Under the pieces are notes generated by a model. The model had not been told where the DNA came from and did not search any database. It saw only the letters and a list, made by a program, of their open reading frames with translations. Both the position numbers and the translations under genes were made by a program. This document shows positions 5,863 to 55,872 of a stretch of DNA of 64,000 nucleotides, one piece after another. Each line of letters opens with the position of its first letter. The stretch's first letter is position 1. This stretch comes from Tubulanus polymorphus (lineage: Eukaryota; Nemertea; Palaeonemertea; Tubulaniformes; Tubulanidae): NCBI RefSeq assembly GCF_964204645.1, contig NC_134028.1:3384501-3448500 (forward strand), given 5' to 3'.

Positions 5863-6181
5863 TGGTTACTGGTAACTGGTTACTGGTTACTGGTTACTGG
5901 TAACTGGTAACTGGTTACTGATTACTGGTTACTGGTTACTGGTTACTGGTTACTGGTTACTGGTTACTGTTTACTGGTTACTGGTTACTGGTTACTGGTT
6001 ACTGGTTACTGGTTACTGGTTACTGGTTACTGGTTACTGGTTACTGGTTACTGGTTACTGGTTACTGGTTACTGGTTACTGGTTACTGGTTACTGGTTAC
6101 TGGTTACTGGTTACTGGTTACTGGTTACGGGTTACTGGTTACTGGTTACTGGTTACTGGTTACTGGTTACTGGTTACTGGA
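5863..6181. repeat. Heptanucleotide satellite (TTACTGG)n
   Basis: About 45 copies of the 7-bp unit TTACTGG. Copies are nearly perfect in the body. The left edge carries variants (GGTAACTGG, ACTGATT) and there are isolated changes inside (TTTACTGG, TTACGGG). Seven is not a multiple of three, so all frames rotate. Degenerate copies at one edge and clean copies internally fit expansion by slippage or unequal exchange. Confidence 0.97.
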
Positions 6182-9100
6182 TACTACAAAGTTTCAATTC
6201 TCGTTAATAGGCGACATATGCATGTGTCATCTGGGAATGTGTCATCAATATTTTACAATCCGTTTATTTGATTTCTCATAACTGTATCACTGACTGGGTG
6301 TATATAGACTGGGTGCATGTATTGGCGCTTTCTCTATTACGTTAATGAATCCACGTGAAAGAAACTGCTATCGATGTCACTTGTATCAAAATCAGTAACG
6401 ATTAATAGGTAAAGAAGAAACTCCGTGTTGAGTTTTATTAGCCGTCGACGTTTCGTCGACGTCGTCGTCGCCCGGGTTTCTGTTTTATTATGTCTCGATT
6501 TATTCCCGATGGAAATCAGATTTGAGCGTATTCGGCTGGGTCAATAAGTCCAATCCCGCGGGGACGTATCGATCAAAATACCCCTCGTATTCCAATCACG
6601 GTTCGATGAGTTACCGATGCACAACGATAAGGATTACTTTTCATCGTCGACTATTTGATTCGTTTAGTCTAACGGCGAGATTTTTTCGCCGGTCGCCTGA
6701 AGACCCGAACACCAATCATCTTTTGCCGCCCACGCACGTAAAACGGCGTGTTTAATACGTTGGTAATGACTCCGCTCTATCGTTTGCCGAACCGAACCAA
6801 TTTTCCGGTCTTATATTCTGTCTAAGTGCGTTCGTTTTGCACGCTCCATTAATAAATTGTCATCCAAGGGCTGTTTGCGACGAGCGATTACCAGTTACTG
6901 GCAATTGCAGACTCCGATTTCATTTTGGAGCTCGTACACTCCTTTCGCTGCGTTTTGACCGCGGAAAAACGTTTGCGGTCGTCGTCACTGCTGGTTGATG
7001 AATATCGTTTGTGTACGCCGTGCGCGTGGGATGACCTGCGACCTCGATCTCTGTGAGGTGGCCAGGATTCGATCTCGAAACTAAATGAACAATCCAGCGG
7101 GATATAGTTTTAGAAAACTAAGATCCAAACAACGCAAGGCAAGATAACAGACTAACAAACCTCCGTTCTAAGAGGCAATGGTCCTACCCGGTTCGACCAT
7201 GCTTTGACCAGGCCGATTGGTTGTGTGCTTGACTGAAACTTATAAAACTCGCTCTCGTGCGTACCAACGGAAATTTCCTGCAAATACGTCATTCTTGTAA
7301 GCGGGGGAATCCGCGGATTTTCGCGAAAATTTAACCAGAACGTAATTAAGTAAATTTAATTTCTCTGTTACTTTGGTCTAATGAGAACGAGATACTGGTT
7401 TCGAAATGATTAAAGTCCGTTCTAAAAGACTGACTGTTGAACTATTGGCCTATAACACGGTGCCCTTTACAAACTACCACAAAAAAACTCACAATTTCTT
7501 TACGCATTAAATATCAAATTATGAGATGTTGAAAATTGATTCTTTCCAAGAATTTGCCTCGAACTCTCATACGCGTTATTACACGGTTACCACGAGGTGA
7601 TTTCATAATGCATACCGTAATCTAGTTCAATGTGTAGGTGTCTGTACCTATGGACGTATAAACTAGTTATTCTAGTTTATACGTCCATCGTGTACCATAC
7701 TATTCGCCCTTTGGCTTATATATGATTGTGTCCGGCGTCTTTTTGCATTCGACAAACCTTTCCGAACGTGGAAGCAGTGTGGCAGAAAATGAATGCATCC
7801 GCTGGAGGAAATTGGTGCGGCGATCTGATGTCGATACTAGGCATGTCCTGTATCGCGGTTTGCGTGGGCGGGTGGTCTCACCGGTGCACCGATACATAAA
7901 CCAATTTGTAATCACCGTGTATTAGATAATAGCGACATGAAAGTCCATCACCGCGAGACCGATAGTCGGGGGAGTCTGGCTGGATCATTGTCGACTATCA
8001 TGCAATTTAGCAATCATTATCATCGCAAATGTGATCGCGGCACAATTCCGTAACTTGTTAACCGGATTCACTCAGGCGTTTTGTATGTCGCTAAGGCTCG
8101 GAAAAAAACGCTGATTTCTTGAGCAATTTTCAATGCCTGAGGCTCCCTAGTAATATATAGGATATGAGTGTGCATATATACATACATGTTTTAAGCTAAT
8201 ATGATATTTGTAATTATCTATAATTCCTAACCCTCAAGCCGAATGCAAACAGCAAGACATAAACCAACTTTTATTATATTTTTATTCTTTCTCTCCATGT
8301 TGTTTATCTCTTAGTATTTTAGCTGCATTTACAATCTCATTTGATATGATATGATTTATTTTCTCCACAAAAAGTCTTTTTTATAATTAGCCATATATAT
8401 TGAATAGTTGATCATGCTTTGTACGTATCTTTTTGTTTGTTTCTGATTCCTTGTTTAATGTTCATTGACAATCTTTGTATGTACAGATTTTGAAATTGAT
8501 AAATAAATTGAATTGAATTATAGTTTTCTTGGCTGGTTTCGTGATAGTGTGCGTTGCCTCTGAAACGCACATTCGGTAAAGCTTCAACCTTATGGTACAA
8601 TGTATTGGTTTGCTCGGCCACATTTGCGTTCTTTGTTCGCGACCTCCCTTTGGTATCATTACATTCAATGATTAGCTTGAAGCGAGCATAAAACAAATTA
8701 TTTTTCCACCCATGTCACCCTTCTGAGGTCATTGTCCGTTCATCTTGGAGTCTATTTGACCAGAACTACACTGGGAGTAACTCTATCCATCTTGTTTTAT
8801 GAATGTTTTCCGCACAATCTCCCTGTGTGTTTGCCAAATCCTGGCTAATAAAGACCCTGCTGTCCCAAAAGAAGAGCCAATTTGTTTGACTATGACCCGA
8901 ACACGAGGAATCATTGATTAGTCCCGTTGCAATTACTGGTCAACCATTCACTGGAAAATGCAATATCGTATGATGACTTCAAGTTACGGGGAACGTTCTT
9001 AGTTGGCCACATTTTATGTTATTTCCGGCAAAACTATCTAGGGTAACCGTTAATTTCTTGTTTTCGAACAAGAAACGCTAAGGAAAACGGGTTGAAATTG

Positions 9101-11802: not shown

Positions 11803-12444
11803 TCAATCTTTCACGGATTTATCGTGCCAATTTCCCGAATCACTAAAAGACGTGATTGATATATTGATGATTATAACGGCAAAACCTAGTAACGACAAAA
11901 TATTCGCTAATTTTGCGTTAAATAATTCCTTCCGCGTAGTTCCATCTTCGAGAAGTTTTTCATGAGCATTTTCTACAGCTTCTGCCCCGCCTTTGATCAT
12001 TATCTCTTCTTGTTCCGTCAATTTTCCTCCTTCCTCGACATGTCCTACCTCTTCTTCTTCTTCTTCTTCTTCATCATGTCCCTCCTCTTTTTCTTTCTCG
12101 TGTTCTTCCTCTTTCTTTTCCCCGTGTCCTCCTTCTCCTTCCTCGTGCCCACTGATCACCTGCGAGTTGGATTCGGAAGAACTGATGACCATCAATAAGA
12201 TCGCCATCGCCATTTCTAAAATGATCGATACGATCAACAGCAGCAACATCGTGTAGTAATACTCAACTCTCGGCTTTCCTTGGCTTAATATAGTTCTCAG
12301 ATGATTTATATTTGCTGTCAAAAGGGTTATATTTGACAGATTGTGCAAGTTTGTCTTCTTTGTTGCGTATCCCTTGCGCGATATTTTTGTTTTAATCTCA
12401 TGTTCTTCTTCTTGTTCACCGTGCCCTGCTTCCTCGCCTCCCAT
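11803..12444 (-). CDS. Ninjurin-like membrane protein with acidic cytosolic insert
   Basis: The 213-residue protein resembles ninjurins, small plasma-membrane proteins that oligomerise and in mammals (NINJ1) execute membrane rupture in lytic cell death. Residues 19-56 match the conserved amphipathic region (YATKK at 26-30, then NITLLTANINHLRTILSQG). TM1 is about 65-88. TM2 is about 181-200 and ends in IIINISITSF, close to the ninjurin ending VVNIFITAF. Between them residues 89-178 form a loop of roughly 90 residues, very rich in Glu, Gly and His, including eight consecutive Glu at 125-132. As I recall, vertebrate ninjurins have under 20 residues there. In the NINJ1 topology this loop is cytosolic. 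The first Met is at 12444, since an in-frame stop lies just upstream. The gene is intronless as read. The family call rests on pattern memory and needs a profile search. Confidence 0.75.
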   Translation of the reverse strand: MGGEEAGHGEQEEEHEIKTKISRKGYATKKTNLHNLSNITLLTANINHLRTILSQGKPRVEYYYTMLLLLIVSIILEMAMAILLMVISSSESNSQVISGHEEGEGGHGEKKEEEHEKEKEEGHDEEEEEEEEVGHVEEGGKLTEQEEIMIKGGAEAVENAHEKLLEDGTTRKELFNAKLANILSLLGFAVIIINISITSFSDSGNWHDKSVKD

Positions 12445-17406
<4,962 letters not shown>

Positions 17407-17742
17407 TTCGATTGCTCTCGTCCGTTCCAATGTCCGAATTGTTCGCATGTCCGTGTTCGATTGCTCGTATCCGTTCCCATGTCCGAATTGTTCGCATGTC
17501 CATGTTCGATTGCTCTCGTCCGTTCCCATGTCCGAATTGTTCGCATGTCCGTGTTCGATTGCTCGTGTCCGTTCCCATGTCCGAATTGTTCGCATGTCCG
17601 TGATCGATTGCTCTCGTCCGTTCCCATGTCCGAATTGTTCGCATGTCCGTGTTCGATTGCTCTCGTCCGTTCCCATGTCCGAATTGTTCGCATGTCCGTG
17701 TTCGATTGCTCTCGTCCGTTCCCATGTCCGAATTGTCCCCAT
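17407..17742. repeat. 49-bp minisatellite, about seven copies
   Basis: The word CCGTTCC recurs at 17422, 17471, 17520, 17569, 17618, 17667 and 17716, an exact 49-bp period. Copies are more than 90% identical. Variants include CCAATG for CCCATG in copy 1, CATGTTCG in copy 2 and TGATCGATT in copy 4. Because 49 is not a multiple of three, several frames on both strands stay open with Ser/Cys/Pro-rich or Arg/Glu/His-rich products. I regard these as repeat artefacts, including the 300-residue plus frame running through to 18208. Confidence 0.97.
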
Positions 17743-19223: not shown

Positions 19224-19471
19224 TAGTTCATTTTCAACTAAATTTGAACTGGAATTTTAGGCTTCCAAAACCGAAGATCATCAAACAAGTCATCAAATAG
19301 GCATTAGATTCACTTCCCCACTGTATACGGTTTAGATATCATTGAATTAGTTCATTTTCAACTAAATTTTGAACTGGAATCTTAGGCTTCCAAAACAGAA
19401 GATCATCAAACAAGTCATCAAATAGGCATTAGATTCACTTCCCCACTGTATATGGTTTAGATATCATCGAA
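19224..19471. repeat. Tandem duplication, 124-bp unit, two copies
   Basis: The block starting AGTTCATTTTCAACTAAA at 19225 recurs at 19349. The copies differ by a one-base indel and a few substitutions (AAAACCGAAG/AAAACAGAAG, GTATACGG/GTATATGG). High identity suggests a recent local duplication. No coding content. Confidence 0.93.
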
Positions 19472-30836: not shown

Positions 30837-31608
30837 AAGGACATCTCCTTTTGAAAGAATATCGACCAAGAATCTTTGTCTATCGTCTAGCAACTTCTTA
30901 GAAACAGTTCGCGTGCACTTAACTCACTCCGGACGTGGATCAATGCACATTGACTATTATCAATTTAGCTTCGTTATACCTTATAACAATATCTGTTATT
31001 AACGAAACCCTTCTAACTTACTCGGTAGGCTCAGTAGTCACACGCGCGCGTCCATTGAACATGTCGCGGGAGCCGATTGATTAGTCAATAATCGATAGAG
31101 TTCGATTTACGCAAATATCCGACTCGATCTACGCGCGTTGCTATAAATAACCGCAATCGACAGTAATCAACTTGTCGGCTCCGATAATGCGCTGGTAATG
31201 TAAAGACAACTGTCAGTAATCGGGCATCTATTTTCTCGATGACATCGATTTTAGTATACTGCGCATAAGGTATCTCAAACCCATATGTCGTTTTACACGG
31301 CGCCAAAATCAATGGAAAAAATGCTCTACTTTTGATATTTGTGATAATAGTTCAATTTGTCATTCTTTTTTCTTTTTAAACGACCATTGATCTTTTCATG
31401 TTGATTTCTAAGTTTGCATCTTTACATTAATAGAAGTAGAGATTTTTTCAACTTTTGTCACGTAGAACTAAACGGATAAACTGCCCCTGGGCAACTTTTT
31501 CCTCTATTAAGCCTCGATAAGACTGGACAAGCATCGGTTTATTAACTGTCTCTTCGGCTAACAAAAATCAGTCGACGACATTCAGCTGTTATTTACGATT
31601 TATGCGTA

Positions 31609-31620
31609 CACTGTAAAAAA
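31609..31620 (+). repeat. Left terminal inverted repeat of transposon
   Basis: CACTGTAAAAAA, the exact reverse complement of 41072-41083, preceded by TA. The next 450 bp contain palindromic CCGTTTTTTTACGG (31752-31765) and further CCGTTTTT words, as expected for subterminal transposase-binding repeats. Confidence 0.85.
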
Positions 31621-32093
31621 AGATACGGTGCTTATCGTTTATTAACACCCCTTTTTCCATTAAAATCGCAATAAAACGTTAAAATTAGCCAAATTTCGCA
31701 ATTTTACGTTATTTTACCAGTAATTTCTGTTAAACACAGTAAAACAGGTAGCCGTTTTTTTACGGAAGACATGAAAACGACGATAAAACTCATTTTCACG
31801 GTTGACCAAGCGTAGCAGTGCGGTGCACAGCGATATTAGATGGGTGGTCGACGTTTCGATACGGCAACATTTTTTCTGGGACGGCAAAATCAATTTTTTT
31901 GCGACAGGTAGACGTTTGGCTGAGGCGTGCACCGTTAAAATACCGTCAGTGTGAAATATATAACGATGTGCGGACGTGTCATTACTGATCTTAACATCAC
32001 AAAACGGAGAATGCCGTTTTTCGTAGGCAGCCGGTCGTATTTTTTCGTTTTTTTCCGCATTTTACTGTCGTCAACAGGCGTGTTCGATGCAAG

Positions 32094-32126
32094 ATGGCGG
32101 AACTGCAAACCGGTTCGACTTTACAG
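32094..32126 (+). CDS. Transposon leader coding exon
   Basis: An ATG opens 11 codons (MAELQTGSTLQ) ending at TTACAG followed by GTAAGC, a strong donor, in phase 0. It can join in frame to the acceptor before 33382 (transposase-like gene) and also to the acceptor before 37190 (second gene), since both downstream exons start in phase 0. It supplies the ATG that the main 33382-36069 exon lacks at its beginning. Inferred from splice signals only. Confidence 0.6.
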
Positions 32127-33381
32127 GTAAGCAATTTTTTAATTTCTATAACCTCTCACTGCAAGCATCATCAATCAAAAGTAGCGATAACTTTTCTCCA
32201 GGTCTCGTGTGTCCGGAGGGAGGTTTCCGGTATCAAATTCCCGTTTGATTATATGAATATTTCCGGAAAAGGGCCTAAAATAAATGTCATGTCACCTCGG
32301 ACAACTGTAGTAGTGTAACTAGTGTAAACTGTGTCATGGACCTGCCAACCGTACTTTTTCACCGTATTTTCATATGGCTGTGGGCTTTTGTGTAGGCCTA
32401 TGGACTCTCTCTATTTAGTACGGTCTTGAATAGAATTCTGGGTGGTGATAAAATAATTGACTAGACAGTAGCAATAGGCAACTAGTGATCGATAGAGAAT
32501 CTGCATGCTGTATTGTAACACAAGGAGCTGCTCTAACGCGCGCTTATTTCAATTTAATTCAAAAGTAACAGAATCTTGAAACTACGATTGATAATATCTT
32601 TATGATTCATAAATTGTAATAAGGGCCTAGCCCTATGAATTAATAAGGCGATTAGATTTAGACTTAAAAAGACGCTATTTATTGAAGAGTTTATTCAGAA
32701 TCTTGAATTGATACATGTAGTTTTAATTGGTAACACGTGTTGGAGCACGTTTTTGATTTCGTTTTGATATATTACATCACCGGCCTTGCGATTCTGGAAA
32801 ATAACAGAAAAATAATCATGATATTGAAGAAATTGCTTGAATTATTAGATACTGATCAGATTTAATACTGATTAGATACTGTAAAAGAAATGTAATTTAT
32901 TTCTAATTTAGTAGGCCTATAATAATATATTAATATTAATAATTGTGATAGCATTAATTCTTACAATGTTTTAGGCCTATAGGCCTAGTCATTTATTTGG
33001 TTAGAAATTCTATTTTCGACCGGAACTGGAAGTTATTTTTCGTGTCGAGTTACTATTAAAAAATACTGACAAACTCAAAAACTGACGACATTTTTCTGGG
33101 GTTGGCAGGTCTGGATGATGTGTGTCAGTCAGTGTGTGGTCAATATAGGCTAGGCCTAATCAATGAGGATGAGTTCTTTATAATAAAGTGAACCAAGCCC
33201 GTGCCTAGAGCCTATTAAAGACCATGCCAGATTCATGTGTTCTAATGTAATATTATTAGGAAGATCCCACACCATTTTGATATAGTTTCGCATTCAAGTA
33301 AAAATATAGGATAGGACTAAGAGCATTGGTAAATTCTTGAGTCATGCTGTGATTAAATCTAAGGTCTGGGTTTATTTGTAG

Positions 33382-36069
33382 GAACTATATAAATGCCTTG
33401 TATGTCAGGCACAGTCAACATCAGTGAAATCGTATTGTCGTCATTACAGAGAGCATAAAAATCTACCAAATTTTCCAAACATACCTTGCCCACATTGTAA
33501 TGTCTTATCACCTTCCTATGATGCACTACGTAAGCATATAAATAGGAATCATGATGCTAAAAAAAAAGATGGAGGCCTCAGAAGACCATCATGTCTTGCT
33601 GAGTTCAAATGTTCAGTGTCTCTATGCAATAAAGTATTTATGTCTTTGAGTAGTCTAATCGCGCACCTAAAGGTACATATTGGAGTGGGTCATGAAATAT
33701 CGTGTCCGTTTAAGGATTGTAGCTATAAATATGATGTAAAGTCTTCATTTTCAAGCCATCTTTCACGGCAGCATAGGGAGGATTGGTTTCGCGATAATAT
33801 AAAGGCTGAAATTGCAGTACCGTTAGTTCTGGAGAAAAATGATTCTCAGACCGATTCAGTCAGTGATTCCATTGAAACTGCAGAAGCAGCAGGAGACATT
33901 TCAGATTTACACCTGGATGAAACTCTAACCAATAGTTCTACTGATGTCAGGCAACTTGAAATGAGCTTAGCTCTTTTGTATCTGAAATTACAGTCTAAGC
34001 TTTTAGTACCAACTTCTACTGTACAAATAATAGTTGAAGAATTTGCCAATGTTTTCCACCTTGAACAAAAGTATGTAAGTGGAGTATTGTGGCATAAGTT
34101 GAAAAGTCTTGAAATAACAGATGATGTCGCACAGAAAGTTATTGATGAACTGGCTCAACAAAATGAATTCTCTCAAATTCTAGACATGAAGAACGGTCCA
34201 TTTCGTTCGGAGCATTGTAGAAAAAAGTTTTATGGAAAGAATTTTAATGTAATTCCACCAGAGAAAATAGTTCTTGGTGGTAATGACCAATTTATGTATT
34301 ATGTACCCATTGCTAGAAGCATTGAAGGCTTTTTCAGTGACTCAGCAGTTGTCAACCAATTTAATTGTCCATGCCCATCTAATCTTGATAAAATGGTTGA
34401 TATCCATGACGGGTTGGCTTTTAGACAAAATCAATTTTTCAATGCTTCTCATGAAAAATGCTTGGAAATTATATTATATCAGGATGAAATGGAAATTGTT
34501 AATCCCCTAGGAAGTGCCAAAACCAGGCACAAAGTATTGGCCTGCTATTTCACTTTGGGTAATATCTTTCCATGGCACCGGTCTAAAATTGATAGTATAC
34601 AATTGTGCTTCTTGTGTAAAAGTAGTACTGTAAAGCAACTTGGCATTAAAAAAGTCTTTGAAAGATTGGTTCAAGACATAAAATCTATTGAAAGTAATGG
34701 TATTGAAATTCAATCTTTAGGAAAAACTATTAAAGGATCGGTACTTTGTGTTTTAGGGGACAATTTAGGATCCAACGGTATTGGGGGTTTCACAGAAAAT
34801 TTTTCAACCTCTGCATTTTGGTGCAGATACTGTCTTCATTCAAACATAGAACAAAAAAACAAGGACATATGGCCTAAAATCATCCGTGATGTAAAATGTT
34901 ATAAGGACTCCGTAGAAAAAGTAAATACTGAAAATTCTATACATAATGGGGTCAAGGAAAATTCTGTCTTGAATCAGATGAAGTATTTTCATGTTCAGCA
35001 GCCAGGTTTACCCCCCTGCCTAGCACATGACGTTTTTGAGGGTATACTGAAAATTGATCTTGGCCTTATATTAAATGATTTTATTAAGAAAAAGTGGTTC
35101 ACAGCATCTAATGTTGTTGATAGATTTAGAAAATTCAAATTAGCAGGGTCTGATGTCCTAGATAGGCCATGTTTGAGTGTTGACAAAAAAAAGAAGAAAT
35201 CAGTTAAAGTAAGTGGGAGTGCCGTTCAGAATTGGAACCTACTTCGTTTGATTCCGGTGGTTTTAGAAGATGAAATTCTGAATACATCAGATGAAGTATG
35301 GCGATTGTTTATTATGTTAAAGCAGGTAGTTGAGTATATATGTTCTCCATGTGTCACCATGGAAATGTTAGCGATGATGGAAACTTTGATTGAACAGTAT
35401 ATTCAATTGAGGATTGATGTATTCCCAAATTCTAATTTACGTCCTAAGCACCATTTTATCCTACACTATCCATTGATGACATTGTATTTTGGCCCTTTAA
35501 TTAGACTCTGGACTTTACGCATGGAAAGCAAACATACATACTTCAAGCAAATTGTCAGACGAACTCAAAACTTTAAAAACGTCTTATTTTCACTTTCTGA
35601 AAAACATCAGTATCTTCAGGCATACTATTCTATTGGTAGTCTCTTTTCTCCAAACTTGACTTATGTTGAAGGTTTCAAATTTGTTGACAGTATTTATAGT
35701 GCTGAGATTTCTAAGTCTGTACGAGATGTCATACCTTATTCCAAACAGTGTTTAGTGACTAAAGAAATTAATTTCAAAAGTGTTATATATAAATTGGACA
35801 GTGACATGCATGTAGCTATCTCAAGTAGTGAAAGTGAGACAGTGTTTGGAAGAATTATTCTACTGCTTGTTTCCGATGAGGAACCATTCTGCGTCGTGGA
35901 CCTGGAGAATGCTATATACTCTGAAGCATACGGTGTATTCGAGCTCCAATTGAAACAGGAAAAACTGTGTTTAAAACTGTCAGAATTATGTGATTTTTAT
36001 CCACTGCCATCTTACAAAATGTCCTCAAAAAATGTGGTTGTAATCAAACATGCATTGGTGATGCGTTAA
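33382..36069 (+). CDS. C2H2 zinc-finger transposase-like protein, main exon
   Basis: The exon starts after the acceptor TTTGTAG and runs open to TAA at 36067-36069. With the leader exon the protein is 906 residues. Four C2H2 fingers occupy the N-terminus: C16-C19-H32-H36, then fingers starting PCPHC, FKCSVSLC and SCPFKDC. The C-terminal two thirds resemble large zinc-finger/transposase proteins repeated in fish and invertebrate genomes, with blocks VLGDNLGSNG, LPPCLAHDVFEG, FTASNVVDRFRKFKLAGSD and RLWTLRMESKHTYFK. The last recalls the DUF4218-like part of EnSpm transposases. Candidate acidic catalytic residues are D471, D561 and E726; this is my inference. Poly(A) signals AATAAA at 36212 and 36236 follow. 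No frameshift or stop interrupts it, so the copy may be recent or active. Confidence 0.75.
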   Translation, partial: ELYKCLVCQAQSTSVKSYCRHYREHKNLPNFPNIPCPHCNVLSPSYDALRKHINRNHDAKKKDGGLRRPSCLAEFKCSVSLCNKVFMSLSSLIAHLKVHIGVGHEISCPFKDCSYKYDVKSSFSSHLSRQHREDWFRDNIKAEIAVPLVLEKNDSQTDSVSDSIETAEAAGDISDLHLDETLTNSSTDVRQLEMSLALLYLKLQSKLLVPTSTVQIIVEEFANVFHLEQKYVSGVLWHKLKSLEITDDVAQKVIDELAQQNEFSQILDMKNGPFRSEHCRKKFYGKNFNVIPPEKIVLGGNDQFMYYVPIARSIEGFFSDSAVVNQFNCPCPSNLDKMVDIHDGLAFRQNQFFNASHEKCLEIILYQDEMEIVNPLGSAKTRHKVLACYFTLGNIFPWHRSKIDSIQLCFLCKSSTVKQLGIKKVFERLVQDIKSIESNGIEIQSLGKTIKGSVLCVLGDNLGSNGIGGFTENFSTSAFWCRYCLHSNIEQKNKDIWPKIIRDVKCYKDSVEKVNTENSIHNGVKENSVLNQMKYFHVQQPGLPPCLAHDVFEGILKIDLGLILNDFIKKKWFTASNVVDRFRKFKLAGSDVLDRPCLSVDKKKKKSVKVSGSAVQNWNLLRLIPVVLEDEILNTSDEVWRLFIMLKQVVEYICSPCVTMEMLAMMETLIEQYIQLRIDVFPNSNLRPKHHFILHYPLMTLYFGPLIRLWTLRMESKHTYFKQIVRRTQNFKNVLFSLSEKHQYLQAYYSIGSLFSPNLTYVEGFKFVDSIYSAEISKSVRDVIPYSKQCLVTKEINFKSVIYKLDSDMHVAISSSESETVFGRIILLLVSDEEPFCVVDLENAIYSEAYGVFELQLKQEKLCLKLSELCDFYPLPSYKMSSKNVVVIKHALVMR

Positions 36070-37189
36070 TAAGGTACATTGATGAGGCATTTGATGTTCT
36101 AATTTTATACAGTTTTGTTCAAGATTGTTCTGTGTTATTTAAAGGTCATTGGCAAATTAAAAAAATTTATTTTAGAATTCAAGAATTACTTCTAATAGAT
36201 AGATTGAAGTAAATAAAATGCTTGCATTCTGCTTGAATAAAGCATTAAAAAAGATGGCATAACGGGTTTCGATCAGCATTGCTTCTCCTGCACAACTACA
36301 ATGTGGTCTGTTGTAAACAGCAGTGATTCATGACGTCATTTGATTCGCTCAGCAGCACGGTTACAATGTTGAAAGCATAGCACTCTACTTTTAATCAACT
36401 GTATCATCGCTTATGTAATATGTATTATTTATTGAATGGCATCATTGGATAGCTATATAAACTGAGAAGAACCTTCAGTGAATGTCATGGATTGTTATGC
36501 ACTGCGTTATCTGTATGAGCCAAATTAAAAACACTAGTACTGAAGTGAACTGAATAAAAGCTGCCTCAACGTGTGTATAGCAGACAGTCTCTGCAGCAGT
36601 GCGAATCAAATGAGTCAATGTGAACCACTCCACTCGGTACTTTAGTGAACTACACACAGTGAATACAATGTGCTCTTAATCTTCACATAGGCGCGTTAAC
36701 AAAATAATTTGGTAAAATTATGATTAGAAATGTTTAGCTAGGTTAACAGGATGGTATTAAACTGTGAAATAGAAATTTGAAAAATTAGTGTGCCAATGAC
36801 CGTTAATTAAGACTAGCTGGTTGGTACATTAGTACCGATTAGTGGGTCTGTTATTTGAATTAATCAGGATTTTCAAGAGTTTTTTATTTAAAGTGTTGCT
36901 TCACTATTAGTTCTTTATTATCATTATTATTATTATTCTTTATTCGCGAATTGAATTACATTAGAAAATTACAGCAGGTGATAACAAGATAATATAAAGT
37001 TGATGGACACCTGACAACAGTGTCATTTGAATATTTGAACCGAACCAGATGAATGGTACCGATTTAATCCTCTCAAGCAAAGTTGAAATACGTAGAAATT
37101 AGGTTCCATATAATAAAATATAATGGGTAAACAATATATAAATAGGACTTTGTGTATGAAATTGTTACCGCAATACTTTTTACTTTTAG

Positions 37190-37258
37190 GTGCCAGTCGT
37201 TCAAAGCGAGATGATCTTAAATGATACACTTGATATCTCAGACTACTCTAGTATCGAT
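37190..37258 (+). CDS. Transposon second gene, exon 2
   Basis: A 69-bp exon between an acceptor (TTACTTTTAG) and a perfect donor (GTAAGT), phase 0 at both ends, encoding 23 residues (VPVVQSEMILNDTLDISDYS and SID). It contains a Met codon at 37211 that could act as an alternative start. It most plausibly receives the leader exon 32094-32126 by skipping the transposase-like exon. Confidence 0.6.
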
Positions 37259-37436
37259 GTAAGTAATTAATTTAATCGAATAAATACTCAGTATTTGTGG
37301 CGGATCAAGTATAGGATCAAAATCATAAACGTGAAATGTTTAAATGAAATTGTACCTGTAGTTTTTATGTATACATTAATTATTCTAAAATCACTGACTC
37401 TAGGATTTGGCATAAAGAATTTGTGTGCAAGGACAG

Positions 37437-37989
37437 GTCGCTAATTTGTATCATGTGTCTCTGCATAACACAAAAAATGTTAAGTTGTGGCTGCGAGTTC
37501 AGAAACGTAAAAGTGCCGTAGAGTTTGAAAACATTTCTGTGAAAAAGGCTAAATCCGACAATCCCACCATGAAGAAGCTTCAAGAACTTTTTCAAAGTGG
37601 ACAAAAGCAGTCTGCTGAAATTGAACAGCTGCTCGAATCATTATATGATAGTATTAGAATTGAAGCTCACACTAAACATGACATTAAATGTCTCATTGAG
37701 AGGTGGCCTCATGTCTTTAAGGAAATAGTTTATTTTGTACGTCTTTGCGAATGCTCTATCAATTTCGACCTAAAGGACTTTTCAACCCATGTTTCCACAA
37801 GGTTGGAGTTGCTGCGTACTTTTCTAGACAAGAAAAAGACCTTTGGCGGAAGAAAAACTACTGACGTGCATTTGCAATGTTTTGAAATGCTAACAACATT
37901 CTTCAAAGAGGACCGCAGTATTATTGAAATGAACCGAGATGATTCGTTTGAGGATGATCTCCCCTCGTCACCAACTATAAACATTTTCT
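37437..37989 (+). CDS. Transposon second gene, exon 3 (SAMD3-like accessory protein)
   Basis: Opens after the acceptor AAGGACAG in phase 0 and encodes 184 residues plus one base, ending at a perfect GTAAGT donor (phase 1). The N-terminal part is basic (KRKSAVEFENISVKKAK). The remainder has helix-rich segments such as HDIKCLIERWPHVFKE and FGGRKTTDVHLQCFEMLTTF. The whole resembles the C-terminal part of SAMD3-like proteins of fish and invertebrates. No SAM domain is visible in the exons found. The role is unknown; second genes of CACTA elements often encode DNA-binding or regulatory partners of the transposase. Confidence 0.6.
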
Positions 37990-38012
37990 GTAAGTATGCC
38001 GTCATATTTCAG

Positions 38013-38204
38013 GGCCCAAAATTGGATTTCAGTTCCACAGTTCCGAGTTAAGATTTGACTCCGAGTTAAAACATTGAAAATGAAGTATCCAGGACCCAGT
38101 TCCACAGTTCCGAGTTAGGATTTGACTCCGAGTTAAAACATTGAAAATGAACTAATTTTAACTCGGAGTTAACTATAACTCACAACTGTGGAACCGAGTC
38201 CTGG
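38013..38204. mobile_element. Nested MITE-like inverted repeat with duplicated arm
   Basis: It lies in the intron between exons 3 and 4 of the transposon's second gene. The left arm (38089-38143) and right arm (38158-38204) are imperfect inverted repeats with ends CCAGGACCC/GAGTCCTGG. A second copy of the left arm precedes it directly (from about 38031, 67-bp period), giving an arm-arm-inverted-arm layout. Confidence 0.75.
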
Positions 38205-38513
38205 ATAAAAATGCGGGATACTAGCTATTCAAAATATGGCATGGAATTCACAACAAATTTATTTCCTTTTATGACGCGTTGTTGGCATGATATCTGTGCC
38301 ATAGATATACTGTCAAAATTAAACTTGATATCTAACTTCAGACATGTCAAAACACATCTAGTTATATAAGAAGAGCAAAATATCAATAATTGCTACGCTG
38401 TTGAAGATATCTAGATCTGATGTCTTTGTTGTGTGAATAATTTTGTCACATTTTCCATGAGCTTTAATCACAAATTATGAATAGTCTTTCACAGAACAAT
38501 GTTTCAACTGAAC

Positions 38514-38557
38514 ATGGACGTATAAACTAGATATAAATTTCTAGTTTATACGTAAAT
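38514..38557. repeat. Short palindrome, copy 2 of dispersed family
   Basis: The left arm ATGGACGTATAAACTAG (38514-38530) is identical to copy 1. A 10-base loop (ATATAAATTT) follows, then CTAGTTTATACGTAAAT with two mismatches in the outer stem. It sits inside the transposon intron. Confidence 0.9.
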
Positions 38558-38734
38558 GATCTGAATTACTTTTACTGTTTTAGCCGACTTGGGACTTAAG
38601 TCCCAGTGAGCTATTGTGTTCACATTTCATTTGTCAGTTTGTCTGTCTGTAAACGGAATCCAGTTGAAATCTTTTTGATTAACTGTTAAGCATTTAAAAT
38701 TCCTTCCCAAATGGGCATGGTGTCTCGGACCTCT

Positions 38735-38876
38735 AGTTACCGCGGTGAGTGCCATTCAGCAAGGAGCTAATGTGGATGATGTAACTTTCTCAAGGACATC
38801 ACAGCACAACCGCGGTTCGAACCCATGACCTTGCATTCCACAAAGCCGTACGCTCTAACTACTGGGCGATGCTGTT
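38735..38876 (-). mobile_element. tRNA-derived SINE
   Basis: On the minus strand an A-box-like TAGTTAGAGCG (within 38851-38870) is followed by the B box GGGTTCGAACC (around 38813-38824). A tail follows containing GATGTCCTTGAGAAAG, which resembles the conserved GTGTCCTTGGG-type tail shared by many invertebrate SINEs. It does not form an intact tRNA. It is inserted inside the transposon intron, so it is younger than the transposon family or was carried with it. Confidence 0.7.
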
Positions 38877-38989
38877 CATAAAACCATTTAATTGTATGCA
38901 GCTTAAAAATAATTCGATTTCAAATTGATTTTGACTGACTGGATACTGCTGTATTATCAAATACATTCACAATATTACTTTCTTTTCAG

Positions 38990-39246
38990 CTGCTGTGAAT
39001 GGTGAGGACCAATATATTATTACTGTGGACAAACTGATCATGTTTAAAGTCACTTCACAGATGGATGCACTGAAACTACTGTTTTGTTCTTATTTTGTCT
39101 TCAACATTAAATACCCAAGTGCAGTAGGCAATACCATGGAATTTTTCCAGCGCTACATAGTGTGTTACAACCCTCCAGGGAGAATTCGACCTAAAGTAGC
39201 GAAACTAGCTGATAGTTTGGCCAAGTATCACTTTAGTCAGCTATAA
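38990..39246 (+). CDS. Transposon second gene, terminal exon
   Basis: Starts after a good pyrimidine-rich acceptor (ACTTTCTTTTCAG). The phase fits the preceding donor (T plus CT gives Ser). It encodes ITVDKLIMFK, then FVFNIKYPSAVGNTMEFFQR and YIVCYNPP, blocks typical of SAMD3-like C-termini, and ends at TAA 39244-39246. With the leader exon the full product would be 303 residues. AATAAA at 39446-39451 is a likely poly(A) signal. Confidence 0.65.
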
Positions 39247-40383
39247 ATGCTAACATCCAAGTATTATTTGAACTGAAAGAGAATCTTGTGTATTGAGCAA
39301 TCAAGTGCATTTGTTTTTGTATAATGTTTCAGAAAATATTTTCTTTTTTTAATATATTTGAATTTGGTGAAAACTCTTTTCTAACATTAAATTTATTGGT
39401 ATTCATCGCCACTTTCAGCACAATCATAAAAAATGTCATTTCATTAATAAAACAAATTCTGGTAGTGATGGAGAATGCTATTTAATTAAAAAAAGAAAAA
39501 AAGCATTATTTACTTAAATGTGAATGATTTTGCAATCAGTGCAAAACTAGTTTAAGTTACAAAAAATCCCACAGGAGAACGAACAGTTTTGGAAATTTTA
39601 TCAAGTAATCTTAATCATTTCGGCTAACCTTTTAGCCCACTGGATCAGATCTGGCCCATGATTTTCAATTTGTGTGAAAAAAATTTAATAAAGGGCCACT
39701 GCCACAGAAGCAGGTTTCATGAAAAAAAGCAACTCATCACCAAATATCAAAGATTAGATATTATATTTTGTATTGCTTTAATACAGTAACTCTATAGACG
39801 AGTGTTCGGTAGCGTGTTATACGTGTAGTTGTTGTGAGAGAAATATTTCACTATAGACTGAAATGAGAAATCTTTTAGTCACTTAAACATACTCGAATGT
39901 GAAAACAGGATTTATTTGACATGATTATGTACATGAAGTACATGTTTATACAGAAATTTGTGGTACAGTGTATACCATAATGTTTTTCTTTTAATTAACT
40001 CGGCGCCTAAATCGCACATTCGGGGAATCATATTTTTGTCTGGGTTAGTGGTTTCAGAAAAGGAAATACTGGAGATAATTGTAATTATACATGTTATATG
40101 TATTAATTCTTCATCTTATTATTTTTAAATCTTTGCTTGTAATTTTGTCGCGCATTTTTAAATTCTGTGTAATTCTAAACAGGGTAAAGCCCACTCTCCA
40201 ATTTTAATTTGTATTGAAGTTATATTTTTAACTCGTTGAAATATAAACATAAAGCGTATTTTACTACTGTATTATGTATTATATGTATGCATGGATTCCC
40301 GAATTTCTAAACCCCTTCCCCGCACAAATTTAAGCATTAGGCTAACAAAAATTGATACCTCGTTTCTTATTGCTGATATTAAA

Positions 40384-40535
40384 AGGTGACCAGGCCGGCC
40401 GCCTTTTCGAAATCATGATATCAGGCTAACAATAACAGACCCAGCAGTTGTAGAAATGAACTGATTAAAAATTTGATTGCAGTTTACAAAATGACCCGGC
40501 CGATTAGGAGAAACAAGGTATCATTTTTAAGCCTT
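40384..40535 (+). repeat. Dispersed repeat, copy A (inside transposon 3' region)
   Basis: It shares AATAACAGACCC(A/G)GCAG, GTTGTAGAAATGAACTGATTA and CAGTTTACAAAAT, followed by TTAGGAGAAACA, with the minus strand of 49855-50020. The two copies are clearly homologous but diverged. No coding capacity is evident. Confidence 0.8.
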
Positions 40536-41071
40536 ATGATAGGAGAATTGGCATTGGAAATTTGCCCCTTAAAGGAGTCTCAATTCAGGCATCCTGTCGG
40601 GGGTTTCAATTTGTGTCCTTTTTTCTTCTGTTACTGTATCCTGGAGGTTTTTATGTTGGAGGTGCCTTTTACTGTCGATTCGAAGGGTCTGTGGGGTGTG
40701 ATCTCCAGAATGGGTCAAAAGGTCAGCTAAGGAGGACGGTGGCATGTCGGATCAGCCAGGCGATTCTGCCGTTTCTGGACGGTGCTCGATCGTTATTTCA
40801 CGTTGGATGGAGGTCATTTTAATGGTAATCTCGCCGTATTTTAACGGCCCAGTAACGTATTTAAACGCAGCGGCTGCCTCCGGTATACGGGCGCTCATCA
40901 GCTCCTGACGGTAATTCAGACAGGGAAATACGGCGTACAGCCATTTCGGAACGGCGGGTTTGTGTTTTTACATAACGTGAAAAAACGGCATCATTTTTAT
41001 TACCATCAAATGACGGAATCTCTATGTGTCCCAATTGCTGCCGACGGAATTACCGTTTTTAAACGGAATTA
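40536..41071. other. Transposon right subterminal region
   Basis: Non-coding as far as I can tell. It is rich in CGG/CCG words, and near the end carries the palindrome CCGTTTTTAAACGG (41053-41066), matching CCGTTTTTTTACGG near the left end. Short overlapping frames at 40473-40822 have no recognisable domain. Confidence 0.55.
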
Positions 41072-41083
41072 TTTTTTACAGTG
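41072..41083 (-). repeat. Right terminal inverted repeat of transposon
   Basis: TTTTTTACAGTG, the perfect reverse complement of the left end, followed by TA. Confidence 0.85.
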
Positions 41084-41580
41084 TATTTGATTTGTTCGGA
41101 CGGTCAGGTGACTCTCGTCGGAATTCTGATTAATTCTCGAGCACGTTCGTCTTCTACGGTCTGATTAGTATAATACCTTCCCGGGAGACACGGGTAAATC
41201 TTGCCGAAACGATTCTGGCGACGACAGCGAAGATTCGCGGTGATCTTTTCCTGATAGCTCGGTCATTCCCGGGACACGGCGGCAAATCATAATAAAATTC
41301 AGCGGCCGCCGCTCGGAATATCGTCCTTGAATGAATAATTTGTGTATATATAGTTATGTGTTTATTGATCGTTCTGGAGCTCTGCTTCATCATAAACTTT
41401 GTGGGTAAATGAGCTACGGAAGACTCCACTTGGCCTCGGATCTCGCGGGTCCAGTACATCTTCTCCCCACGGGTACGAGGACCGTCGGAGCCGGGGATGG
41501 GTCGTTAATATCACAAATGAATTGGGAGTAAGAACACATGTCATACATTTTTGTTGGCACGCGATAATCCGAAGCAATCC

Positions 41581-44648: not shown

Positions 44649-45551
44649 ATGCTTTCGATGTCAGTCGTAGTGCCCGAGAAGGTGACGACCCCGCGACGCC
44701 GGCGAGGATCGATCCAGGTGCCGCTACAGTCTGAGAAGTCATCATCAGCGCTCGACGAGAAAGTTTCGTTTCCTCCGCGGCGCGGGTCGATGGTGCGTCC
44801 TGCGACTGTCGACGACGAGCTAAGGTATCGAGTGGTATTTCTCGGAGCGGGTAAAGTCGGAAAGAGCTCGATTCTGATGCGTTTCCTCACCGGTACGTAC
44901 ACCGGTAAATACAAAGAAACAGTCGAGGATCTTTACTGTCGCGAATACGAATATAACGGAAATACTGTGAAAATCGACTACTTGGACACGGCGGGTAATT
45001 TCGCTTTTCCCGCTATGCGTCGGTTGTCGATTTCGACAGCGAACGCGTTCGTTCTCGTCTTCTCGCTTTCCGACGAGCGATCGTTCGCGGAAGTGCAACA
45101 ACTCCGCGAACAGATCAAGGAAGAACGCGAGGATTATCAAGAAGTACCGGTCGTCGTCGTCGGAAACAAAGGCGACATCGATCGAGAACGCGAGGTCGGC
45201 CCGGCTGACGTCACGGACTGGATCGACCAGGAGGGTTTGGAGGATTGCTACGTGGAGGTTTCGGCCAAATTCGATGACGGCGTCGTCGAAACGTTCCAGA
45301 ATTTGTGGGACCAATCAAAGTTCAGCCTGTTACCACCGTGGATACACACACCGCGAAAGCGCCGAACGAGCGCCTTCGCCGTCATCATGAGCCCGATGAA
45401 AGACGGCAAAGACGGCAAATTCATAGACTCGAAAGAGGACAATAAGTTGCTGGCCCGTAGCAAGAGTCTGATGCGTCGTGGAAGCAAATCGAAGGCAAAA
45501 GCGGCCACACAGGGTACCGATACTAATAAACTCGACTGCGTTATTTCTTAA
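44649..45551 (+). CDS. RASD/Dexras-like small GTPase, prenylated
   Basis: A 300-residue intronless Ras-superfamily GTPase. Visible motifs are the P-loop GAGKVGKS (66-73), switch I TVED (91-94), DTAGN (113-117), NKGD (173-176), SAK (205-207) and a C-terminal CAAX box CVIS (297-300). The block FPAMRRLSI (120-128) and the CVIS ending are hallmarks of RASD1/RASD2 (Dexras1/Rhes). The DTAGN has Asn where Ras has catalytic Gln61, also a RASD feature and consistent with slow hydrolysis. Dexras1 acts at membranes in G-protein and nitric-oxide signalling. The N-terminal extension (about 60 residues) is longer than in vertebrate RASD and basic. Four RRxS sites flank the G domain. A second Met at residue 4 is an alternative start. 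Possible poly(A) signals are at 47246 and 47432. Confidence 0.88.
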   Translation: MLSMSVVVPEKVTTPRRRRGSIQVPLQSEKSSSALDEKVSFPPRRGSMVRPATVDDELRYRVVFLGAGKVGKSSILMRFLTGTYTGKYKETVEDLYCREYEYNGNTVKIDYLDTAGNFAFPAMRRLSISTANAFVLVFSLSDERSFAEVQQLREQIKEEREDYQEVPVVVVGNKGDIDREREVGPADVTDWIDQEGLEDCYVEVSAKFDDGVVETFQNLWDQSKFSLLPPWIHTPRKRRTSAFAVIMSPMKDGKDGKFIDSKEDNKLLARSKSLMRRGSKSKAKAATQGTDTNKLDCVIS

Positions 45552-53000: not shown

Positions 53001-54792
53001 TAGTCTAGTACGACGAACAGTATTTTGAATGATTAATGAGAGGTAATGCAACTTGACATTTATCTGGACCCGTCCGCGTATAAAGCATCATAGAAAATTG
53101 CCTATCAACGTTAGCCAGCTTTAAATGTCAAAACGTCAACCAACATTTATTACTGTACTAATGCTAATGATATAAGAGTCGATTCAAACGATAATCTCAT
53201 CAGACAAATTCCATTCGAAAGAATGTCAAAGCACTAAGGAATTCGTAGACATTTTGACGATTATACATTAATGCCAAGATTATGATTTTCGTGAGTTTTT
53301 TCGAAAGGACTAGCATCTGAAACGTGGCTTTTTGTATCTCTAGATACTTCACTAATCCATTTATAGAGCTCATCGTTACAACAATAAGAATAGAGATATG
53401 ATGTTCCCAGAAGCCTGTCGTTGTTATTCGAGCACCAACGTTACGGCAGAATTCTAGACTCCTACTTCGAACCTATAGAGATTTAAAAATAAGGGAGACT
53501 GCGTCATATATGATGAAGAACGTCACACGAGCTTCTTACCAGAATGAACAAAGGAACTTTACCACTTTCTGGCTGATTAACTTGATCTTGAAAATCCCAC
53601 AGGCTTTCAGACTTAGTAACATGATGTCAGAAGAAGTAATATGCTGTGAGTGTTTTGAATAGGTAACTGGAATGTTCTATGAAATTAGAAATCACTTTTT
53701 ACGAGATTTACATAAACGTTTTCTCTATGGAAAGGGTATGTCTATCAGTCGTTTCTTTTGATAAGTCGGATCAACGGGCACGCACTTCTACATCGAAATA
53801 CGATGAATTTCTAAATCAATTGCCACGTATGCGATATTCTTCTCATGCCATCGTTTGGTATTGAAATCGCATGCTTCTGTGTTACGTTTACTTAAGTTAA
53901 TTTTCTTCCTCGAGTAAGTCAGGAAGTTAGTCTGGATGTATAAGTCTACTCGGGAAATCATTTTAAAACCTTGAGCTACCTGCGACCATGGACGTATTAA
54001 CTAGAGTTTATACGTCCATGTTACGACAGAATATACTTCGTGGTGTTGCTTTTCTCATGTACCGTAATTACAATAGCTAGAATGGTACTGTGGCGCTTGA
54101 TTGAGGAAATAGGTGTTTCGCGTACGGGGGTGCTTTGATTGAGGAAAAGGAAATTTCTAAATGTCAAGTAGATAGTCTTCGTCACTAAGGCTATGTTTGA
54201 AGAGCAACATGGAGCAGAAAGGATCGTATAGTTTGTTTTTGTCTGAGGCTTTTGTCAGCTGCAAAATCCATACACAAGTAAGGCACATCTGTCGAAACAA
54301 AATCTTTTTTCAAATCGCTTGATTACTGTAGATATCCAGTACCCAATGTTGTATTTCAATAGCTCACTTAAATCAACCAGCTTTTCATGAATGCTTCATC
54401 TCTCTATGAATATATAGCACTTCGATTGAGGACGCAATTTTTACGGAAATTTTGTTGTTAGAATTTGGGGTTTTTACACCAACATAATGTACTGCGCGAC
54501 ACTTCTCGCTCAGATGTGTCAGAAACGGAAACAATAATTCAAAAACTTGTTCTCGGTGAAAGAAGTTGCGGAGTTGCCCTTTTTTTATCTTAAAATAAGA
54601 ATTGTCCCCGCTATTTATATGATTTGCCGGTTTGGTCGTCTTTTTTTTAATTTGGTGTCCCTCGCAAAATCACCACACCTGCCGGGAGCGAAACAGGGTG
54701 TTTCATTTTGTGAAGTGACTTTAAGCCGTTCAGAATAATGAATATATGCGTAGAATTCAGGCGTCACCCGGGTGATAGGAGGTGACGTCAGA
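50021..54792. other. Intergenic, no supported gene
   Basis: Frames of 60-99 residues are present without family resemblance. The palindrome at 53988-54019 is listed separately. The last kilobase should contain the promoter or upstream exon of the GPCR gene, but I could not place either. Confidence 0.4.
53988..54019. repeat. Short palindrome, copy 3 of dispersed family
   Basis: ATGGACGTATTAACTAG runs directly into AGTTTATACGTCCAT. The stem has one mismatch and almost no loop, and both outer ends (ATGGACGTAT/ATACGTCCAT) match copies 1 and 2 exactly. Confidence 0.9.
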
Positions 54793-55872
54793 ATGAAAAT
54801 CATTAGATTGAAGCTCCTCGACTTCCCAGATTGCGGTGGGGTCTGCGCTCAGAGCGGTCGCACAAACTCTTCAAACAACTTTAAGATGAATTCTAGCGCG
54901 AATTTAAACTCATCGATGACGATGCAGCAAGAACCGAAGACTTTTTGGTTTTATATTGACCTGTATTTCGCGTACGGTGGTGCGGGAACCATTCTACCTC
55001 TGGGAACTCTGGGCAACATCGTCGGAATTATCTTACTGCGAGATAACGACCTCAGTCGGTACGTTGTGAATTTCATCTTCTTCCTACTGTGTGTCAATGA
55101 TTTGATTTCGTTGCTATTGAATTATCTGCCGTTAGTAATCGGGAGGATGTTAGGAGGCGATTTAGTCAACAGTAACATCTGGACGTGCCGAACAATCTAC
55201 TTCATGCGCATGACATTGACCTCGATATCGGCTTGGTTATTGTTATGCTTGTCGATCGAGCGCGTAGTGACTCTGAAAAAAACTTTTCCTAATTCAGCCA
55301 GCAGCCGTAGACGTAAACACATTTGGATCGTAACTATTATCATTCTATATATGTCTATGTTTCTTGTATATTCGCCCATGATTTATGCCGTAGACATGGT
55401 CGAAGGTATATGTCAACCGATGGACTATTTCATTCCACACTTGCAGAATTTTCTTTTGATGGACATGCTTATTTTTTCGATCATTCCTTCGATACTTTTT
55501 TGCGTCTTCAATTTGATCATTTTGCAGCACGTTTGGCATCGTCGTAACACCGTTGAACCTTTACCTACCACTAGTGCGACTATAAGCCGCGCTAGAGAAA
55601 GTGCCGCTACAATATGCGTTGTTACGATGACTTTGCTGTTCGTGGCTACTAGTTTACCTACGGTCGTGTATAATTTCCTAATTCCGGACTGGATGAAGAA
55701 AAAGGACCCAACCGAAAATCAGAAGAACTTATTCATTATGAGTTTGTTTTATCACATATTCTCGATGAATAACAGTTTGAATATTTATGTGATGTACATC
55801 ACCAGTTCGGTATACCGCAGAGAGTTAAAAAAGCTAGCGACAAAGGCATCAAAAGCAATATGCGGCAACTGA
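54793..55872 (+). CDS. Orphan class A (rhodopsin-type) peptide-like GPCR
   Basis: A 359-residue intact seven-helix receptor. Helices lie at about 57-83 (LGN, N75), 90-116 (VND, D103), 130-160 (C132; ERV at 156-158 in place of DRY), 177-200, 218-247 (P232), 270-297 (SLPTVV) and 313-339. Helix 7 has NIYVMY (330-335) instead of NPxxY. Helix 8 starts YRREL and a Cys (357) near the C-terminus could be palmitoylated. C207 in extracellular loop 2 can pair with C132. The N-terminus has Asn-Ser-Ser glycosylation sites (25-27, 33-35, 39-41). The first ATG is at 54793; Met32 (54886) is an equally plausible start, or the 5' end may be spliced. It resembles the large invertebrate sets of FMRFamide/TRH-receptor-like orphans. 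The ligand cannot be read from sequence. Confidence 0.8.
   Translation: MKIIRLKLLDFPDCGGVCAQSGRTNSSNNFKMNSSANLNSSMTMQQEPKTFWFYIDLYFAYGGAGTILPLGTLGNIVGIILLRDNDLSRYVVNFIFFLLCVNDLISLLLNYLPLVIGRMLGGDLVNSNIWTCRTIYFMRMTLTSISAWLLLCLSIERVVTLKKTFPNSASSRRRKHIWIVTIIILYMSMFLVYSPMIYAVDMVEGICQPMDYFIPHLQNFLLMDMLIFSIIPSILFCVFNLIILQHVWHRRNTVEPLPTTSATISRARESAATICVVTMTLLFVATSLPTVVYNFLIPDWMKKKDPTENQKNLFIMSLFYHIFSMNNSLNIYVMYITSSVYRRELKKLATKASKAICGN

Follow-up and report, generated by a model that had tools for sequence, protein, structure and literature searches.

A young CACTA-type transposon family of Tubulanus polymorphus, with an internally deleted copy and a CIDE-N domain in the second gene of the full element

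In the maize transposon En/Spm the gene comparable to gene 1 below lies inside the first intron of the gene comparable to gene 2, the subterminal motifs are clustered, and internally deleted derivatives exist which can be mobilised. Subterminal repeats at both ends are typical of CACTA elements. Here we describe a CACTA-type element at positions 31609..41083 of a 64,000 nucleotide (nt) stretch of the nemertean Tubulanus polymorphus (contig NC_134028.1, positions 3,384,501 to 3,448,500, forward strand). This whole stretch is termed the window and corresponds to C4:3384501-3448500 of the analysed genome, a 268-Mb assembly of 77 contigs.

Published work describes several related systems. In En/Spm, alternative splicing of a single unit yields a transposase and a helper; transposition of Spm requires tnpA as well as tnpD, and DNA-bound TNPA is stabilised by TNPD (PMC1636069). 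The target site duplication (TSD) of plant-type CACTA elements is 3 bp (PMC4158355) and that of CMCT elements is 2–5 bp (PMC12730594). Among animals, CACTA elements with TSDs of 2 bp have been described before. SmTRC1 shows a relationship to Transposase_21, a 2-bp TSD demonstrated by empty sites, and several products (PMC1636069). ENS1_Cis of Ciona savignyi and the CMC-NA miniature inverted-repeat transposable elements have CAC..GTG ends and a 2-bp TSD (PMC6004678).

The T. polymorphus element resembles En/Spm in its CAC..GTG ends and in the combination of a transposase gene with a putative helper gene, although splicing is predicted here. It differs in having a TSD of 2 bp instead of 3 bp and four C2H2 fingers in the gene 1 product, and in the second product, which displays a CIDE-N domain, a domain that TnpA is not known to possess. 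With SmTRC1 it has in common the animal host, the 2-bp TSD supported by empty sites, several products (here predicted) and a probable relationship to Transposase_21. SmTRC1, however, has ends that begin with CCC, terminal inverted repeats of 54 bp and a length of 4.5 kb, and its PrA and PrB products are without detectable relatives in the excerpted account (PMC1636069). ENS1_Cis and the CMC-NA elements share the ends and the 2-bp TSD, but no helper protein is described for them in the excerpt of PMC6004678.

The element belongs to a young, recently mobile animal CACTA-type transposon family, and the copy in the window is not intact. Our reading, with a probability of about 0.77, is that the window holds an internally deleted and recently mobilised CMC (CACTA/EnSpm-type) element, the full form of which carries a transposase and a TnpA-like helper with CIDE-N. 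The element and its borders are as follows (window positions throughout).

31609..41083, plus strand: whole element, internally deleted copy, 9475 bp (termini, flanks, identity to the 10535-bp C8 copy)
31607..31608, no strand: left TSD, TA (flank sequence)
41084..41085, no strand: right TSD, TA (flank sequence)
31609..31620, plus strand: left terminal inverted repeat CACTGTAAAAAA (read in sequence)
41072..41083, plus strand: right terminal inverted repeat TTTTTTACAGTG (read in sequence)

The 12-bp termini form a perfect inverted repeat inside a 23-nt arm pair that is 83% complementary. They read CACTG ... CAGTG, i.e. they have the CAC ... GTG ends of CACTA/EnSpm elements, and the exact termini and TA flanks that a preliminary description of the locus had reported are confirmed. 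Four copies of the element, termed family A, are present in the assembly: the window copy and copies on contigs C8, C12 and C36. A related family in the same genome is termed family B.

C8:7437078-7447612: family-A copy, 10535 bp, full element
C12:9138566-9149128: family-A copy, 10563 bp
C36, left end at 14876: family-A copy, right end lost

The 30-bp right end has seven genome matches at ≤3 mismatches and its reversed control none. The 22-bp left end has six matches at ≤3 mismatches versus seven for the control, which is not above chance; four of the six are exact and all four come from copies of the window element. The terminal 20 bp as they read in family B match 23 sites at ≤2 mismatches versus one for the control. 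Left and right ends are found together in three of the four family-A copies. The exception is C36, which lost its right end secondarily: it breaks off within the element, and the sequence resumes in flank some 5 bp beyond the point of insertion according to three empty relatives of the site. Apart from C36, the element thus passes the refutation test set in the preliminary description, namely copies with other ends or with one end lacking the other. Inside the element, at 38029-38207, a GTTCCACAGTTCCGAGTTA-like unit is clustered in both direct and inverted orientation, and the C36 copy breaks off within this cluster, which thus may be a fragile hairpin.

All six two-ended elements display a 2-bp TSD (TA, TA and TG in family A; TT, TA and TA in family B), so that TA is found in four and TG or TT in the others. 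This length is within the CMCT range; the 3-bp direct repeat of plant-type CACTA elements is present at the ends of none of the six. An empty site was found for the C12 insertion. Its joined flanks with a single TG have six genome matches, one exact, four with one mismatch and one with two, and the reversed control has none. The empty site thus fixes both ends of the element and shows that the duplication is 2 bp. On C6, C9 and C36 the flanks of the C12 and C36 copies are found as a pair separated by about 8 kb, which suggests that both insertions lie within a single type of long repeat.

The window and C8 copies show no mismatch over 9475 bp apart from a 1060-bp gap, which bounds their divergence at less than ~3e-4 (rule of three). 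Besides indels, C12 differs from the window copy at 24 of 9498 aligned positions and C36 at 10 of 6535. The window/C8 pair therefore stands out, and gene conversion or an assembly artefact might be considered in place of recent transposition; we judge this to be quite improbable, as the flanks of the two copies are unrelated and each has its own TA duplication.

About 1060 bp present in all three other copies are absent only from the window copy.

37501..37506, plus strand: AGAAAC, junction of the 1060-bp internal deletion (copy alignment)

The 6-bp sequence AGAAAC stands at both borders of the 1060-bp segment in the other copies and once in the window copy. The missing segment comprises exons C and D of gene 2 together with the initial ~400 nt of exon E. 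An open frame at 37416-38051 of the window is a product of the deletion, which has joined intron sequence to the remaining part of exon E. An insertion common to C8, C12 and C36 would also account for a segment carried by three of four copies, and the 6-bp border repeat is readable as a TSD. This origin is extremely improbable and was rejected, since the segment holds the in-phase exons C, D and start of E with the CIDE-N region and has family-B counterparts at the same introns; moreover one of its borders is inside an intron and the other inside an exon. Thus the element is recent, as the preliminary description proposed, but it is not intact, and with gene 2 deleted the suggestion that this copy is autonomous is not supported. 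Of the two open in-phase genes described there, gene 1 is open (906 amino acids, aa) and gene 2 lacks exons C, D and part of E.

Gene 1 is predicted to be spliced from two exons.

32094..32126, plus strand: exon 1, MAELQTGSTLQ, phase-0 donor, fits both gene 1 and gene 2 (predicted splicing; family B has an equivalent exon)
33382..36069, plus strand: gene 1 main exon, four C2H2 fingers and DDE core (by eye, Pfam, alignment)

In the copies of the window, C8 and C36 the 11-codon exon and the main exon join in phase 0 to an open frame of 906 aa; C12 is frameshifted, with a stop after 99 residues. There is no methionine before residue 87 of the main exon, and residue 87 lies inside the fingers, thus gene 1 needs an upstream start. 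Four C2H2 fingers are recognised by eye, and Pfam reports two stretches, at the cutoff. The residues of the DDE core are D368, the D of GDNL, C481-x2-C484, H691-x3-H695 and E715 (P0001 numbering), which include the C(2)C/H(3)H signature given in PMC12730594. All seven aligned gene 1 proteins retain C-x2-C, H-x3-H and the last E unchanged. The two aspartates align by eye in six of the seven; the remaining one, from family G, is a fusion without that part. Gene 1 therefore displays the catalytic signature and, from its sequence, is a predicted DDE transposase with four C2H2 fingers.

Pfam Transposase_21 is above its cutoff in a relative that is 30% identical (locus L056; 30.9 bits, 1.9e-7) and below it in family B (18.5 bits) and family F (11.8 bits); the other three of six relatives scanned gave no match at E 1. 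A weak Pfam match of the window gene 1 to DUF4218 was also seen (0.18). NCBIfam gave no useful match for gene 1 or for the family-F gene 2 piece, and of three pattern matches to relatives in viral contigs none was confirmed. A genome scan with gene 1 shows at least 55 matches in at least 36 loci; these counts are lower bounds, since scoring covered 51 of the 106 candidates.

Mirage elements have 2-bp TSDs, and a 2-bp TSD biased to TA could place the element in another TA-targeting CMCT lineage such as Mirage or ESTA rather than EnSpm. ESTA elements are EnSpm-like with TA TSDs (PMC12730594). Such an assignment is unlikely. The described ESTA families are fungal and carry a TET/JBP gene (PMC12730594, as excerpted), whereas Pfam finds no TET/JBP in gene 1 or gene 2; Transposase_21 is above the cutoff in a relative; and SmTRC1, with 2-bp direct repeats (PMC1636069), and ENS1_Cis (PMC6004678) are animal CACTA elements.

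Gene 2 lies downstream of gene 1. Its exons in the window are:

37190..37258, plus strand: gene 2 exon B (exon model)
37507..37989, plus strand: gene 2 exon E, remaining 3′ part (exon model)
38990..39246, plus strand: gene 2 last exon F (exon model)

In the C8 copy the gene 2 exons join without a stop to a predicted 492 aa. Residues 51–106 match the CIDE-N domain (Pfam PF02017) with an E-value of 7.2e-7 and 29.6 bits (cutoff 23.5), and the region alone gives 3.3e-8. These are the exons that fall in the segment deleted from the window copy. The preliminary description had labelled the second product SAMD3-like, which is not borne out for family A: with E allowed up to 5, Pfam, whose filters drop most weak matches, reports CIDE-N there but no SAM. 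In a PDB search with the CIDE-N region, the DFF40 CIDE-N aligns along the domain (E 0.0011), followed by CAD (0.13–0.15) and DREP3 (0.71).

The family-B gene 2 has 531 aa, is 40% identical to that of family A and agrees with it in the order of its exons and the phases of its introns. Its exons B and C contain no methionine, thus it needs an upstream start. Between families A and B, the proportions of nonsynonymous and synonymous differences (pN and pS) are 0.29 and 0.80 for gene 1 and 0.40 and 0.86 for gene 2, with pS saturated. The value of 0.40 against a saturated 0.86 indicates that gene 2 is under selection within the element.

CIDE-N is a domain familiar chiefly from proteins of cell death. 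By the Pfam match and the solved DFF40 structure, it likens the product to DFF40/CAD, DFF45, DREP1-4 and CIDE-A/B, of which DREP3 is matched only at E 0.71. The host proteins act, according to the excerpted literature, in DNA fragmentation or lipid homeostasis; here a transposon encodes the domain, and the C-terminal part that accompanies it is unrelated. A CIDE-N helper in a CACTA element was not found in the literature searched, where most subscription journals, Repbase and Dfam were outside the scope and may hold one unremarked. The excerpts of PMC7642931, PMC5245865 and PMC2377037 show no link between CIDE-N and a CACTA transposon, and the word SAMD3 is absent from the literature searched on it.

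Both ends of the element carry dyads of the form CCGT-N6-ACGG.

31752..31765, no strand: CCGT-N6-ACGG dyad, left end (motif scan)
40769..40782, no strand: CCGT-N6-ACGG dyad, right end (motif scan)
40834..40847, no strand: CCGT-N6-ACGG dyad, right end (motif scan)
41053..41066, no strand: CCGT-N6-ACGG dyad, right end, start at base 18 counted from the terminus (motif scan)

The outer 1200 bp contain four such dyads in family A and seven in family B, where shuffles give means of 0.016 and 0.025 and none of 2000 shuffles reaches either count. Window sequence outside the element has none. Only one perfect dyad is at the left end in each family. At the right end of family B the dyads start at 18, 102, 167, 230, 293 and 358 bp, mostly with a spacing of ~64 bp; those of family A start at 18, in common with B, and at 237 and 302. 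The subterminal repeats of CACTA/EnSpm elements are thus represented at both ends of A and B. A scan of 600 bp at each of 23 right-end loci shows one or more perfect dyads in 14 loci and none in nine. Five of these nine (L042, L043, L046-L048) are without CACTGTAAAAA and look like chance matches; the dyads of L040 are all imperfect, and none is present at ≤1 mismatch in L030, L033 or L044.

The four-finger transposase-like protein and a second product, noted together in the preliminary description, are adjacent in other families as well. A genome scan with the family-A gene 2 protein yields 33 stretches in 15 loci, and at nine of the 15 gene 1 is upstream on the same strand within 10 kb.

Paired loci: four of family A, two of family B, C4:10564151-10568289, C10:8569660-8572376 and C10:4488967-4493252
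Unpaired gene 2 loci: C8:6902495, C9:9722874, C3:14291532, C5:11459979, C4:16466454 and C1:19674065

Copies within a family are not independent, so the nine paired loci represent five families or fewer. As 36 loci of 10 kb amount to ~0.1% of the genome, the pairing is not due to chance.

In family F, gene 1 is 38–39% identical and gene 2 is directly downstream (tblastn 1.6e-7 and 2.4e-5). Its gene 2 has a different head, which looks like SAM by eye, and the same is seen in family G. Pfam gives no match for the F and G heads, and PDB searches with F return no SAM chain; hhalign of the F/G head to SAM has an E-value of 0.007 but a probability of 5.6%, with controls at E 0.12 and 0.39, which is too weak. 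In lineage H, gene 1 is 23–26% identical and CIDE-N exons are found downstream. One of these exons alone scores 2.5e-4 and 21.5 bits, below the cutoff of 23.5, and two joined score 6.2e-9 and 36.2 bits, above it; the joined exons have no PDB match at E 0.1. The intron inside CIDE-N is in phase 1 in lineage H as in family A. For later exons of lineage H the correspondence to gene 2 was drawn by eye alone, as tblastn returned no E-value under 0.41.

Lineage H gene 1 is represented by seven copies of near-equal score with open frames of 844–846 aa on C1, C2, C3, C9, C11 and C12, a sign of recent spread; one of the seven has CIDE-N exons downstream. A 798-aa frame at L057:80-2473 (C1:12658700-12661200, minus strand) consists of a SAM-looking gene 2 running into the C-terminal half of gene 1, and gene 1 matches in other copies also start at residue 468–469. 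A 797-aa frame at L024:3609-5999 matches the hAT dimerisation domain at 20.8 bits, just under the cutoff of 21.4, and probably represents a hAT element nested within a copy of family B.

These features suggest the following model. The full 10.5-kb element, as in C8, would encode two proteins, both able to start from the shared first exon near the left end by the predicted splicing. With gene 2 downstream, gene 1 would be inside the first intron of gene 2, as in maize En/Spm. The gene 1 product would cut and join DNA. The gene 2 product, an N-terminal CIDE-N followed by a longer C-terminal part, would most likely be a TnpA-like helper. Either this product or the fingers of the gene 1 protein may bind the CCGT-N6-ACGG dyads at both ends. 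CIDE domains have been proposed to form head-to-tail helical filaments (PMC8647176), and CIDE-N may likewise stack helper copies head to tail, bringing the ends together for cutting in a synaptic complex. Movement would be by cut and paste with a 2-bp duplication, mostly of TA. The window copy probably lost its 1060 bp between the 6-bp repeats by faulty repair after excision. It could still supply transposase but not the full helper, would be mobilised in trans by a full copy, and may express a truncated gene 2 protein from the fused frame.

Several results weigh against this model. No empty allele was found for the window or C8 site, the joined flanks of which have no genome match each. The Transposase_21 match of the window gene 1 has 11.9 bits (E 0.12) versus a cutoff of 28.6, and a single-sequence structure model of the gene 1 core is unusable (predicted local distance difference test score, pLDDT, 33.6). 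Single ACGG/CCGT motifs are commoner outside the element (2.8 per 500 bp) than in its body (~1.3), though still far less dense there than at the element ends. In the PDB search a designed repeat protein equals DFF40 (E 0.001, short pieces), and with the whole gene 2 protein DFF40 (E 0.015) comes behind an unrelated lipoprotein (0.014). The family-B gene 2 is without a Pfam match though it is 43% identical to A over the domain. The family-A gene 2 has its own methionine in exon B and thus need not use exon 1. Finally, six of the 15 gene 2 loci have no gene 1 match within 10 kb, and 27 of the 36 gene 1 loci have no gene 2 match in the scan with the family-A protein.

The last count would also suit a different role of gene 2, as a regulator, silencing antagonist or passenger dispensable for transposition, in which case the window copy would still be autonomous; gene 1 is indeed open in the window and C36 copies, where gene 2 is damaged. 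Absence in the scan is weak evidence, since family F (by tblastn) and lineage H (CIDE-N exons) proved to have gene 2 when read directly. We regard a dispensable gene 2 as doubtful. Gene 2 adjoins gene 1 in A, B and F, and its CIDE-N exons do so in H, down to 23–26% gene 1 identity; the pN and pS values indicate selection; and the tnpA and tnpD precedent of Spm (PMC1636069) is one in which both products are essential. A helper role for gene 2 thus remains the preferred interpretation.

The surroundings of the element fit an animal genome. The window contains a Ras-family gene at 44649-45551, a rhodopsin-type receptor at 54754-55872 and a ninjurin-like gene at 11803-12459. Tandem arrays are found at 17405-17736, 5863-6185, 15429-15689, 2650-2975 and 19224-19471; the types present are a 49-bp unit, the 7-bp TGGTTAC, TA, AT and GAGA repeats, and a 125-bp tandem duplication.

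The helpers of animal CACTA elements are obscure, e.g. the small products of SmTRC1 are without relatives in other animal or fungal elements in the excerpt of PMC1636069. In T. polymorphus a second product can be followed across divergent lineages within a single genome, and it displays a recognisable domain that is proposed to build filaments in host proteins. The roles of both proteins are directly testable, since the genome contains a full copy as well as a deleted one that matches it, with exact ends and defined dyads. As a tentative extension, which we consider possible though not the likelier case, the helpers of animal CACTA elements may share a body with an exchangeable self-assembly head, i.e. 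CIDE-N in A and H and a SAM-like head in F and G. A protein polymer on regularly spaced dyads would then pair the ends, and such transposons may have traded CIDE-N or SAMD3-like genes with their hosts. Two Hydra species have 10 and 7 CIDE-N genes versus 1–3 in five other cnidarians, and these are reported beside transposase domains (PMC7642931, as excerpted). Transposons of the kind described here may possibly explain this excess.

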